Positions 40,082-44,341 of a stretch of 64,000 nucleotides of DNA are shown piece by piece (the first letter of the stretch is position 1; each line of letters starts with the position of its first letter). The notes below the pieces were generated by a model. The model was not told the origin of the DNA and made no database searches. It saw only the letters and a program-made list of their open reading frames with translations. Source of the DNA: Catalinimonas alkaloidigena (GTDB lineage: Bacteria; Bacteroidota; Bacteroidia; Cytophagales; Flexibacteraceae); the NCBI RefSeq assembly GCF_900100765.1, contig NZ_FNFO01000006.1:248001-312000 (forward strand). Reading direction: 5' to 3'. Both the position numbers and the translations under genes were made by a program.

Positions 40082-41068
40082 TTATGCAAATCCTAACACC
40101 CCGCGAACGCGCTCCAGCACCTTCTGGCCGATGAGGCGGGCGCGGTGTTCCCCTTCCTGAAGAATACGTTCGACCTCTTCCGGGTGATTCATGTAATGCT
40201 CAAACTTTTCGCGCTCTTCGGCGAAATGCGCCTCGAACAACTCGAACAGTTCCTGCTTAGCGTGCCCGTAGCCGTAGTTGCCGGCGCGGTACTTGCGCGC
40301 CATTTCGGCGGTCTGTTCGGGCGTGGCCAGCAGCGAATAGAGTTGATAGACCGTGTCGGTTTCGGGGTCTTTCGGATCTTCGAGGGGCGTGCTGTCGGTG
40401 ACGATCTGCATGACGTTTTTCCGCAGTTTTTTGACGGGCTGGAACACGTCGATCGTATTTCCGTACGATTTACTCATCTTTTGTCCGTCCAGGCCGGGGA
40501 TGGTCATTACCCGCTCATCGATCTGAGCCTCAGGCACTACGAAAACTTCGCCGTAGCGATTGTTAAAACCCTGGGCGATGTCGCGCGTAATTTCCAGGTG
40601 CTGACGCTGATCGCGCCCAACCGGAACCACCTCGGCGTCGTATAGCAGAATATCCGCCGCCATCAACACCGGATATGTAAACAGCCCGGCGTTGACGTCC
40701 GCCAACCGATCCGATTTGTCTTTGAACGAATGCGCATTGGCCAGCATGGGGAACGGCGTGAAGCAATTGAGGTACCAGGTCAGTTCACACACTTCGGGCA
40801 GGCGCGACTGCCGGTACAAAATGTGCTGGCTCGTATCCAGCCCGCACGCGAGCCAGGCCGCTGCCACCGACAGCGTGTTCTGCTGCCGCACGTCGGCTTC
40901 TTTGATGGTCGTGAGCGAATGCAGATCGGCAATAAAATACAACGACTCGTTCAACCGCCCGTGTGCATCGGGCTGACGCGACAGCGCAATGGCCGGCAAA
41001 ATGGCTCCCAGCAGGTTTCCGAGGTGGGGTTTGCCGGAGCTTTGAATGCCAGTCAGGATTCTCGACAT
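40082..41068 (-). CDS. trpS: tryptophan--tRNA ligase
   Basis: 328 residues, a normal length for bacterial TrpRS, starting MSRILTGIQSSGKPHLGN; an upstream ATG adds ten residues without homology. Class I signatures are clear: HLGN (HIGH-type, residues 15-18) and KMSKS (197-201, followed by YGN). The enzyme charges tRNA-Trp with tryptophan. The gene is monocistronic in layout: a TACTTTTG -7-type box stands 28 bases before the start (41096-41103), and a terminator follows directly. Confidence 0.96.
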   Translation of the reverse strand: MSRILTGIQSSGKPHLGNLLGAILPAIALSRQPDAHGRLNESLYFIADLHSLTTIKEADVRQQNTLSVAAAWLACGLDTSQHILYRQSRLPEVCELTWYLNCFTPFPMLANAHSFKDKSDRLADVNAGLFTYPVLMAADILLYDAEVVPVGRDQRQHLEITRDIAQGFNNRYGEVFVVPEAQIDERVMTIPGLDGQKMSKSYGNTIDVFQPVKKLRKNVMQIVTDSTPLEDPKDPETDTVYQLYSLLATPEQTAEMARKYRAGNYGYGHAKQELFELFEAHFAEEREKFEHYMNHPEEVERILQEGEHRARLIGQKVLERVRGVLGFA

Positions 41069-41095
41069 GATGGAATTTCGATGGTTAAATGCGCG

Positions 41096-41103
41096 CAAAA
41101 GTA
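41096..41103 (-). promoter_or_regulatory. TACTTTTG -7 element of trpS
   Basis: Read on the minus strand, TACTTTTG fits TAnnTTTG and lies 28 bases before the start codon. The upstream region at the proper distance has only a TTTT stretch, not TTG. Confidence 0.45.
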
Positions 41104-41163
41104 ACGGATCGGCCGAAGCGGAGAAGGAAAACCGCCCGTCGGGAAATATTAACCGGCATAATA

Positions 41164-41193
41164 TTGCTTTTATTCAAGTGACACCTATTTTTG
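41164..41193 (+). promoter_or_regulatory. Bacteroidetes-type promoter of the DUF1573 gene
   Basis: TTG, 19 bases, then TATTTTTG, a full match to the consensus of the phylum. It lies 33 bases before the ATG. Confidence 0.7.
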
Positions 41194-41225
41194 TTCAATC
41201 GCTCTTACAAGACGTTACACCCTGC

Positions 41226-42287
41226 ATGCGCACTTTCTTTGCTTTCTTCCTGCTTCTCTGGTCCGGTTCTGTGTGGGCGCAATACCCCACAATGCAAGTT
41301 ACTGACCTCACGTACGATTTCGGTACCATCCAGGAGGTAGACGGCCCACAAGTGGCCCGTTTTCCGTTTGCCAACACCGGCAGCGGACCGCTCTACATTC
41401 TCGACGTGGAAGAAGACTGCACCTGTATGGAAGTGCGCTTTCCGCGCAAGCCCATCGCTCCGGGCGAAGAAGGCGTAATCGAAGTGACGTTCAGCCCCCG
41501 GGGGCGGCCGGGTGGTTTCAACCGCCCGCTCATCGTCAACTCCACGGCCGATCCGGTGCGCCGCCTCTTCCACATCAAAGGCAACGTAATTCCGCGCGAA
41601 CGGACGGTAGAAGATTATTTTCCCGACAAGCTGGGCAACGTGCGGATTTATTCGCGCTACCTGAACCTGGGCATGGTGCCCAAAACCGGGCAGAAGGAAA
41701 GCACATTTCGGATTTTCAACCAGAGCAACGACACCATCCGGTTCCAGCCGGTGCCGCCCGGCGTCATTCCGGCGAAGATTTCGGTCACGCCCCAGGCCCT
41801 GGCACCGAATGACACGGGCTTCGTCCACGTGGTTTTCGACGGCACCAAACGCGAAGGCTACGGCTACTTCAACTACTCGCTGACACTTCCGTACCGCGAA
41901 GGCGATCAGTATAATTACCTGCCGTTGTTTGTGCTGGGCTCCATCGAAGACGAAGCGCGGGACATGACGCCGGAAGAAGCCAAACGGCACGCCCACCTGG
42001 AATTGGACCAGATGACCCAGCCGCTGGCCGAGGGTGCCCCGGCCACGTTCCAGCTGAAAAATACGGGCAGCAAGCCGCTAAAAATTCACCAGATCCGCAC
42101 CAACTGCGCCTGCCTGACGCCGAAAGTGACGTCGCAGGAAGTGGCCCCCGGGCAGAGCACCACGCTGTCGGTTACGATGAATGAAGCGCCGGAAGCCAGC
42201 GCACGTAGCTATTCGGTGGTGTTGTACACGAACGACCCGACAACGCCGACACAGCGGCTGACCTTAAAAGCACAGCCTAACAACTAA
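41226..42287 (+). CDS. exported DUF1573-domain protein
   Basis: 353 residues from MRTFFAFFLLLWSGSVWAQ (signal peptide); an open frame upstream is without homology and overlaps the promoter. There are two DUF1573/ASPM-SPD-2-Hydin-like immunoglobulin domains: the first at residues 22-130 (DLTYDFGTIQEVDGPQVARFPFANTGSGPL, then the hallmark DCTCMEV), the last at 255-350 (PATFQLKNTGSKPLKIHQIRTNCACLTP). A similar strand pattern lies in between. The paired Cys residues (CTC, CAC) are typical. These proteins are periplasmic or surface-exposed in Bacteroidota and have no known enzymatic role. Transcription should end in the hairpin right behind the gene. Confidence 0.85.
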   Translation: MRTFFAFFLLLWSGSVWAQYPTMQVTDLTYDFGTIQEVDGPQVARFPFANTGSGPLYILDVEEDCTCMEVRFPRKPIAPGEEGVIEVTFSPRGRPGGFNRPLIVNSTADPVRRLFHIKGNVIPRERTVEDYFPDKLGNVRIYSRYLNLGMVPKTGQKESTFRIFNQSNDTIRFQPVPPGVIPAKISVTPQALAPNDTGFVHVVFDGTKREGYGYFNYSLTLPYREGDQYNYLPLFVLGSIEDEARDMTPEEAKRHAHLELDQMTQPLAEGAPATFQLKNTGSKPLKIHQIRTNCACLTPKVTSQEVAPGQSTTLSVTMNEAPEASARSYSVVLYTNDPTTPTQRLTLKAQPNN

Positions 42288-42295
42288 ACAATTAG

Positions 42296-42326
42296 TTGAC
42301 AACCTGAAGGGTCCTGACTATCTTTG
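42296..42326 (+). promoter_or_regulatory. promoter of the LRR gene overlapping the terminator
   Basis: TTG, 20 bases, then TATCTTTG, a full match to the Bacteroidetes consensus. The -7 box starts right behind the left arm of the terminator and fills its loop. The ATG of the next gene follows 17 bases later. Confidence 0.6.
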
Positions 42327-42341
42327 GTCAGGACCCTTTTT
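42308..42341 (+). terminator. intrinsic terminator of the DUF1573 gene
   Basis: AGGGTCCTGAC and GTCAGGACCCT form a perfect 11-bp stem around an 8-base loop, and TTTTT follows. The T-run ends just before the start codon of the next gene. Confidence 0.85.
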
Positions 42342-42343
42342 GT

Positions 42344-43558
42344 ATGCGCGCGTTTGTCTGGTTTCTTGCTTCTTTCGTGGCAGTTGGCCTGGCTCAGGCA
42401 CAGCAGCACGGCACGCTCCGTGGCGGGGAAGCCGCCCGTACCACCACCCGGCCCGACACCGTCACCACGCTGGTGCTGCGCGACGAAGGACTCACCCGGA
42501 TTCCTGACGTGGTGTACCGTTTTCCGAACCTGCAGGAACTGAACGTGGCGGGGAATACGATTCGCACCATTCCCCGGCGGTTGCAACGCCTCGACTCGCT
42601 TCACACGCTCAACCTGTCGAAGAATCAACTGGCGGGCAAACGACTGCGAATTCGCCGGAACCGCACCCTCCGGACGCTGTATTTGCAGGACAACGACCTG
42701 ACGCACCTGCGCGGGCGCTACCCACGGCTGCGCGGCCTCGAAGCGTTGTTCCTGAACCGCAATGCGCTGACCGCCCTGCCCCAAAACGTAGGGCGCATGC
42801 GCGCGCTGCAGGAGTTGCACCTGAACGACAATCAACTGGCCGACCTGCGCCAGTTGCCGCTGCGGGCGCTGGGGTCGCACCTCCGGTCGCTCAATGTGGT
42901 GCGTAACGGCATCCGGGAGCTGCCCGCCGAACTGACGCTCCTCTCCCACCTGCAGGCACTTTCGCTGGCCAACAACGAATTGTCGGAGGTCTGCCCGGTG
43001 GTGGGACAACTCGATTCGCTCCGGTCGCTGATTCTCTACCACAACCACCTGACCGAGTTTCCTCCCTGCGTGCTGGAACTGGACCGCCTGCGGGAACTGG
43101 ACGTCTACTACAATCAGATTGCGCAAGTGCCCCCGGACATTGACCGGTTACAGCACCTGGAAGTGTTGTATCTCTCGCACAACCGCCTGCCCTACTTGCC
43201 CGAGTCGATTACACACCTGCCCCGCCTGCAAAAGCTGTACCTCCACCACAACCAGCTGGTGGACCTGCCATCGGGTTTGGAACGCCTGCACCACCTGGAA
43301 GTGCTGCACCTGCAGCATAACCTCTTCGATTTTTTTCCACCGGGCATTCTGCGCCTGCACGCCCTACGCGACCTGGACGTCTCGCACAACGACATCACCG
43401 AATTTCCGTCGGCGTTGCTCCACCTCTCTGCCCTCGATTGCCTCTACCTGTTTCACAACCCCATCGACCGCACGCAACCGTGGTTTCCGCCCTTCGAAGA
43501 AACGCTCCGCCAGCTGCACCGGCGCCACGTCCGCATCGGGTTTGAATCGGAAAAATGA
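42344..43558 (+). CDS. exported leucine-rich-repeat protein
   Basis: 404 residues. The signal peptide MRAFVWFLASFVAVGLAQA is followed by about 15 leucine-rich repeats of 22-24 residues between residues 40 and 390, in the pattern LxxLxLxxNxLxxLPxxIxxL (for example LRELDVYYNQIAQVPPDIDRL and LEVLYLSHNRLPYLPESITHL). There is no membrane anchor and no sorting domain. LRR proteins of this type mediate protein-protein contact; the partner is unknown. The start codon comes directly after a terminator, which also contains the likely promoter. Confidence 0.88.
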   Translation: MRAFVWFLASFVAVGLAQAQQHGTLRGGEAARTTTRPDTVTTLVLRDEGLTRIPDVVYRFPNLQELNVAGNTIRTIPRRLQRLDSLHTLNLSKNQLAGKRLRIRRNRTLRTLYLQDNDLTHLRGRYPRLRGLEALFLNRNALTALPQNVGRMRALQELHLNDNQLADLRQLPLRALGSHLRSLNVVRNGIRELPAELTLLSHLQALSLANNELSEVCPVVGQLDSLRSLILYHNHLTEFPPCVLELDRLRELDVYYNQIAQVPPDIDRLQHLEVLYLSHNRLPYLPESITHLPRLQKLYLHHNQLVDLPSGLERLHHLEVLHLQHNLFDFFPPGILRLHALRDLDVSHNDITEFPSALLHLSALDCLYLFHNPIDRTQPWFPPFEETLRQLHRRHVRIGFESEK

Positions 43559-43972
43559 AGCGTTAAAAAGTGGAGAGTTGAAGGGTTAGAAAGTTGAAAA
43601 GTGGTGGAGTGAAGAGTTCAAAGTTTAGAGTTTAAAGCTGAAAGTTCAGATAGCGTTGGAGATGCGCCATACTCCCCTTGAGCACTGTTTACAAAGACTG
43701 CCGACTGCCCACTACAGACGGTTCTTGTGCCCAGCCAGCCGACCGACGGCCGCTTGCGTTTGATGACCAGCCTAGGCGGGAGCGGTTCCCCGGCGGGACG
43801 CTCCTCCGGCCCCGCCATCGGACGTCATTCTTACCCTCCGCTCCATGCACCAAGCGCCTACTCACTCATCCACGCATTCACTCAATCGCTATCTCACTCA
43901 CTGTCCTCTGCCCCACGCGCCCTGCGCTATTCACTCATTCAGTAATTCACTGATTCACTCATTTCCTTACGC
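43559..43972. repeat. low-complexity intergenic stretch
   Basis: No gene. From 43560 to about 43650 the sequence is a purine-rich run of imperfect units such as GAGTTGAAG, AAAGTTGAAAAGT and AGAGTTTAAAG. From about 43850 to 43970 it consists of CATTCACTCA-like units that resemble, inverted, the sequence at 24.9-25.2 kb. Confidence 0.55.
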
Positions 43973-44341
43973 TCAGTAGCTTCCTGCCGAGAGCATCACG
44001 AGGGTACAGCCCTCTACGGTTTCGATGCCTTTTTCCTGGGCTTTCTGTTCCAACTCGTCGTTTTCGGTACCGGGGTTGAAGATGATCCGTTTCGGATTCA
44101 GGCCCAGGATGTAGTCGTGTAGCGGGGCAAGGTTTCGCGACCCCACGTAGAGCGTCACGGTATCGACGTCGTCGATGTGGGGCTGGTCGTTCTGAATTTC
44201 AAGGCCGGCCACGGTGCCACGCTTCAGCCCGACGGGAATCACTTCGTGGCCGTTGCGTAGCAAATCATGCACCGCCCGGTAGGCATAGCGCGAAGGATTG
44301 GGAGTCGCGCCCAGCACGACGGTTTTTTTGGGTTGTCTCAT
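43973..44341 (-). CDS. CoA-binding (YccU-like) protein
   Basis: 122 residues, a single Rossmann-type CoA-binding domain: VVLGATPNPSRYAYRAVHDLLRNGHEVIPVGLKRG, then the DDVDTVTLYVG strand, IFNPGTENDELEQKAQEKGIETVEGCTLVML. This family (DUF/YccU) binds coenzyme A in some members; its metabolic role is not settled. It is transcribed alone. Confidence 0.9.
   Translation of the reverse strand: MRQPKKTVVLGATPNPSRYAYRAVHDLLRNGHEVIPVGLKRGTVAGLEIQNDQPHIDDVDTVTLYVGSRNLAPLHDYILGLNPKRIIFNPGTENDELEQKAQEKGIETVEGCTLVMLSAGSY

Follow-up and report, generated by a model that had tools for sequence, protein, structure and literature searches.

The 56-base spacer between a DUF1573 gene and the leucine-rich repeat (LRR) gene that follows it on the same strand seems to combine an intrinsic terminator with a promoter, the -7-type box of which forms the loop of the terminator hairpin. 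We consider it quite probable that two head-to-tail transcription units adjoin here, the hairpin ending the DUF1573 unit and a primary-sigma promoter starting the LRR unit, and that the overlap between both signals is a packing coincidence. The terminator-promoter overlap thus looks like a real feature that the original prediction had read correctly, but of an ordinary kind and not a special switch. The spacer is located in a stretch of 64,000 nucleotides from Catalinimonas alkaloidigena (the window), on contig C6 of a 7.1-Mb genome with a G+C content of 57-58% in C6 and in the first 400 kb of contig C1. The features of the region, in window coordinates, are as follows.

41164..41193 (+): promoter-like site of the DUF1573 gene, consisting of TTG (41164-41166), 19 bases, and TATTTTTG (41186-41193)
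41226..42287 (+): DUF1573 gene, with matches to PF07610 (2.8e-51) and to the HYDIN-type Ig domain PF22544 (1.3e-26)
42285-42287 (+): stop codon TAA of the DUF1573 gene
42296..42298 (+): TTG, putative -33-type element of the LRR promoter and part of TTGACA, at the spacing of the genome peak
42307..42341 (+): putative intrinsic terminator of the DUF1573 gene, with stem 42307-42318/42327-42338 and T run 42337-42341
42319..42326 (+): putative -7-type promoter box TATCTTTG, which is the entire 8-base DNA loop of the hairpin
42331..42343 (+): predicted LRR leader of 13 nt, starting at 42331 (42332 with 5-nt spacing) by the 4-5 nt box-to-start rule
42344..43558 (+): LRR gene of 404 aa with an LRR_8 match (3.2e-49), start codon ATG at 42344

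The start codon of the DUF1573 gene, ATG 41226, was chosen by eye at the beginning of a signal-peptide-like stretch, alternative starts being 41046 in the list of open reading frames and 41067 from our own gene caller. In the LRR protein, the leucine-rich repeats follow a signal-peptide-like N-terminus that was likewise judged by eye. The promoter-like site of the DUF1573 gene ends 32 bases before ATG 41226 and, since this gene possesses a promoter-like site of its own, DUF1573 and LRR are probably separate transcription units. Within the spacer, 20 bases separate the TTG from the TATCTTTG box and 17 bases separate the end of the box from the LRR ATG. These coordinates confirm that a box lies in a hairpin loop 20 bases behind a TTG, as had been proposed. 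Downstream of the LRR gene, degenerate tandem repeats occupy both ends of a 414-base gap (window 43562-43648 and 43860-43963), composed of purine-rich units of about 31 bases and of ACTC- and ATTCACTA-like units.

Genome-wide counts refer to a sample of 1,960,224 bases, or 27.6% of the same genome, comprising C1:1-800000, C2:1-400000, C3:1-400000, and the whole of C6 (L061-L159), in which our hexamer-based gene caller identified 1,539 genes with predicted starts. The hairpin arms 42307-42318 and 42327-42338 form 12 perfect Watson-Crick pairs in DNA and are followed by a T5 tail, the first two bases of the T run 42337-42341 belonging to the stem. The original prediction was right about the perfect pairing but counted 11 bp, missing the outermost A-T as the twelfth pair. 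In RNA, four of the loop bases make two extra pairs (U-G and A-U), which leaves a loop of 4 bases, and the whole 56-base spacer folds with -27.2 kcal/mol (z -5.96), a value equalled by none of 200 shuffles. A G+C-rich stem, a short loop, and a T run 3' of a stop codon are the hallmarks of an intrinsic terminator. The stem of 12-13 pairs is typical of the hairpin+T sites of this genome, and the distance of about 20 nt from the stop codon compares with a median of 25 nt (10th-90th percentile 18-80) for 82 same-strand hairpins. In gaps of 25-400 bases, hairpin+T sites are found in 62 of 148 convergent versus 5 of 195 divergent gaps when both strands are scanned (a one-strand scan of the divergent gaps gives 3/195, and the two-strand figure is used), and of 716 same-strand gaps, 81 have one in sense versus 18 in antisense orientation. 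Favoring convergent and avoiding divergent gaps, these sites are distributed as expected of terminators. A simpler terminator scan with differing rules does not list the hairpin 42307-42338. A search of the genome with the 66-base element (E up to 10) revealed no second copy; the six matches obtained are the element itself, its palindrome with itself, and four short ones (E >= 1.4).

An inverted repeat that encloses a promoter box might also be a protein-binding operator instead of a terminator. That a palindrome spanning a box is not necessarily a terminator is illustrated at C1:286747-286766 (+; L075), where a 20-base palindrome covers a TACATTTG box about 16-18 nt before a gene; the upstream neighbor of this gene is divergent, and the palindrome may serve as an operator and not as a terminator. 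For the spacer studied here, however, the long stem, the T run, and the position behind a stop codon are all typical of hairpin+T sites, which avoid divergent gaps, and an operator is very improbable.

The promoter motif TAnnTTTG occurs at 584 sites in the 1,960 kb, 322 of them within the 238 kb of intergenic DNA, and the frequency of the motif, about 0.1-0.7 per 1000 positions at more than 100 nt from gene starts, reaches 2-3 per 1000 within the 40 nt preceding them. In same-strand gaps of 40-80 bases, 21 of 190 carry the motif in sense but only 2 of 190 in antisense orientation. The distance between TTG and box peaks at 19-21 bases (11/222, 15/221, and 12/221 boxes), in contrast to 0-8 boxes at any other spacing between 8 and 34, and a box with a TTG at 17-23 bases is present in 5 of the 190 gaps, the LRR gap included. 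The TATCTTTG box fits TAnnTTTG with no G at the NN positions, and its upstream element is preceded by G and is hence TTG and not TTTG. Given the bias for the sense strand and the peak of TTG spacing, with the LRR box at 20, this box probably works as a promoter, though this is not certain. A chance origin seems unlikely, although some room is left for it since, in 20,000 dinucleotide shuffles of the spacer, 3.8% contain TAnnTTTG (0.54% with a TTG at 17-23) and since the two antisense cases show that boxes do occur on the wrong strand. The claim of a full Bacteroidetes-type promoter agrees with the box and TTG rules of this genome and with the literature, as available excerpts describe Bacteroidetes promoter rules that include a distance of 4-5 nt between box and start (PMC6847099, PMC9723704, PMC7366714) and, among the same three sources, a consensus TAHHTTTG for F. 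johnsoniae, whose -33 element was found to be weak. Sigma region 1.1 (PF03979), which is detected in 6 of 14 control genomes, is not found in this one, and region 1.2 (PF00140) has two matches, in short open frames of 289 and 301 aa. Such short sigma frames lacking region 1.1 are as expected for a Bacteroidetes primary sigma factor. A sigma-70 reading of the region as TTGACA-17-TATCTT (10/12) was discarded, as chance alone predicts 0.7 (sd 0.8) matches of this quality in the 3-kb region scanned; the absence of sigma region 1.1 from the genome also speaks against it.

If the box in the loop had arisen by chance, the LRR gene might be expressed mainly from the DUF1573 promoter, by conditional read-through or attenuation. 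The common strand and the short gap would permit this, as would the frequency of the box in shuffled spacers, but the hairpin is strong and ends just before the LRR AUG, sense boxes far outnumber antisense ones in such gaps, and no RNA family of Rfam is matched at E up to 1 in window positions 41000-44000. Also, minimum-energy and centroid folds retain the same hairpin and do not point to an attenuator or riboswitch. Expression of LRR through read-through is therefore quite unlikely, and a promoter in the spacer is the preferred explanation.

From the 4-5 nt rule and a peak of box-to-start distances at 4 nt in this genome, transcription from this promoter is predicted to start at 42331 or 42332, so that the leader would measure 13 or 12 nt, in agreement with the proposal of a start within about 12 bases of the LRR ATG. 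The further suggestion that the LRR mRNA is almost leaderless is not supported, as a box at 17 nt is at the near edge of the leadered class. Across the sample, 33 boxes end 0-9 nt before a gene start, 4 end at 10-16 nt, and 100 end at 17-45 nt, compared with 4, 1, and 14 antisense motifs in the same three ranges. The first class contains a peak of 11 boxes at exactly 4 nt, candidates for leaderless mRNAs, and is made up of 26 boxes before ATG and 7 before GTG or TTG, where the start is perhaps misassigned. At the rate of the third class, about 24 boxes would be expected in the 10-16 nt trough (Poisson P 6e-7, for classes drawn post hoc), and leaders of about 6-12 nt therefore seem to be avoided in this genome. 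The predicted LRR leader of about 13 nt would be among the shortest of the leadered class, and the LRR mRNA is probably not leaderless. Available excerpts report median leaders of 24 and 32 nt in Flavobacterium and Bacteroides, 5.5% leaderless mRNAs in F. psychrophilum, leaders shorter than 10 nt for 3.7% in B. thetaiotaomicron, and leaders of at most 10 nt for 13% in F. johnsoniae (PMC6847099, PMC9723704, PMC7366714). The context of the LRR start is ordinary, with a score above that of 855 of 1150 ATG genes, and a search for a cost of its T-rich sequence was negative. The existence of two box-to-start classes, one leaderless-like and one leadered, may be of interest to students of translation without Shine-Dalgarno sequences.

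The data directly show the sequence, its computed fold, and an enrichment of both types of signal where they would be expected in this genome; from these we infer that this copy of the promoter is used, as well as the exact LRR start and the exact 3' end of the DUF1573 transcript. The hairpin and T run would end the DUF1573 transcript, and the Bacteroidetes primary sigma factor, at the promoter composed of TTG, 20 bases, and TATCTTTG, would start the LRR transcript at about 42331. The short LRR leader would hold only the last part of the hairpin. Because the predicted start is situated inside the 3' arm, the LRR mRNA could not form the hairpin, and the computed fold of the predicted mRNA indeed lacks it. 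It had been proposed that terminator folding and promoter opening involve the same bases. This applies to the DNA letters; the terminator itself, however, forms in the nascent transcript of the upstream gene, and any competition would thus take place between polymerases on the same DNA. Such competition is plausible. Box, predicted start site, and T run are all contained in 23 bases (42319-42341), and a polymerase pausing on the T run would sit over both the box and the start site. Since a polymerase at the terminator would cover the LRR promoter, brief occlusion is likely when DUF1573 is active and, judging from this geometry, intense DUF1573 transcription could transiently prevent initiation at LRR. 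On the same grounds, an mRNA made by read-through would place a strong hairpin 5-6 nt in front of the LRR start codon, and LRR translation from it would probably be poor.

One might go further and regard the arrangement as a regulatory device, in which transcription or termination of DUF1573 occludes or tunes the LRR promoter and both genes are expressed inversely. The fact that a single polymerase would cover box, start site, and T run speaks for this idea. Against it, such overlaps are not enriched in the genome sample. Among 779 same-strand gaps with a length of 25 bases or more, 88 contain a hairpin, and these hairpin gaps harbor 16 boxes versus 17.5 expected from distance-matched rates in hairpin-free gaps (a gap with two hairpins was counted once; double counting would give 17). 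Two boxes overlap a hairpin versus 3.46 expected, and promoter footprints, defined as the segment from 25 bases upstream to about 5 bases downstream of the box, overlap a hairpin in 5 cases (both box overlaps included) versus 6.09 expected, in a model built on small numbers that is compatible with modest enrichment or depletion. A recurrent genome-wide architecture was rejected on the same grounds, as only 2 of 89 same-strand hairpins in the 1.96-Mb sample carry a box. In the second case, near C1:608457, the box is 80 nt from the gene and has a G at an NN position. A different overlap register, which is one of the 5 footprint cases, is seen in the 76-base gap upstream of C6:74876-76202 (-), where the hairpin loop holds the TTG of a predicted leaderless promoter whose TACCTTTG box directly follows the T run, 4 nt before the ATG. 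The loop placement at 42319 is one of several overlap registers in compact gaps, occurring at about the chance rate. With box-hairpin overlaps at or below expectation, no sign of selection on the arrangement was found.

The gene pair was also looked for among relatives. LRR and DUF1573 were each searched in 98 genomes, the own one included (97 others), none of the others from the same genus. LRR has a match in 72 of the 98, own included, the best elsewhere showing 38-39% identity and belonging to another family, and in ten genomes of the same family the best LRR match has an E of 2e-16; DUF1573 is matched in 94 of the 98, again including the own genome. The gene pair is not kept, as none of 29 other DUF1573 loci has an LRR match beside it (tblastn, E up to 1e-3, at most about 1.5 kb on each side), nor does any of them have a box-in-loop hairpin 3' of the DUF1573 gene (150 bases scanned for hairpins, 200 for boxes). 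What is found 3' of the other DUF1573 genes are 3 boxes in 2 hairpin-free loci and a hairpin-like site without a box in 4 loci. A broader set of 58 loci from relatives (224 kb) contains 18 hairpins, none of which overlaps or abuts a box. Contig scans found two remote LRR proteins and none for DUF1573. To our knowledge, there is no functional link between DUF1573 and LRR genes, which also counts against a device, and we judge it unlikely. In L060, from another family of the order, the DUF1573 gene is followed by an ORF that resembles in its first residues the window ORF 40082-41068 (-), presumably trpS, which adjoins DUF1573 as well but is divergent. The two signals overlap because the gap has only 56 bases and, as overlaps are not enriched, the shared bases are most likely a packing coincidence of two required signals placed in a short gap.

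An exact-phrase literature search for promoter-terminator overlap returned a paper on yeast among the matches listed, and further searches gave no case; most of the subscription literature is outside the scope of such a search, and it is no proof of absence. In E. coli, the ampC attenuator ends the frd operon, and the ampC promoter is situated upstream of this terminator, which sits in the ampC leader. As in frd-ampC, DUF1573 and LRR are head-to-tail neighbors, and the end of one unit shares bases with the promoter of the next. In contrast to frd-ampC, the LRR box is placed inside the loop, and a new LRR mRNA would be made without the whole hairpin. The E. coli ampC promoter contains part of frdD, according to the available part of one report (PMC11796351). 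As for sigma-ABfr-type promoters (TTTG / TAnnTTTG), the resemblance, as far as the accessible text on them goes, consists in a TATCTTTG box that fits TAHHTTTG, a TTG at 20 bases, and a start expected at 4-5 nt, and the difference consists in the location of the LRR box in a terminator loop and in an upstream TTG instead of TTTG.

If used as predicted, the spacer would be a compact natural case of a terminator and a sense promoter that share bases, on which promoter occlusion or re-initiation after termination could be tested cleanly. Regarding the latter, a polymerase that has completed the DUF1573 transcript might remain bound to the DNA, recruit sigma, and initiate anew at the LRR promoter, so that DUF1573 termination would feed LRR initiation in a natural terminator-to-promoter relay in sense direction, which we regard as a highly improbable scenario. 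In the available excerpts of a study on post-termination secondary initiation, retained polymerases re-initiated in vitro mainly at antisense starts, with sense starts in <2% of the retained polymerases, and the authors consider that neighboring genes might be coupled where a sense promoter lies close to an intrinsic terminator (PMC6978322). Similar to the situation envisaged there, a putative sense promoter is found near a putative intrinsic terminator in the DUF1573-LRR spacer.
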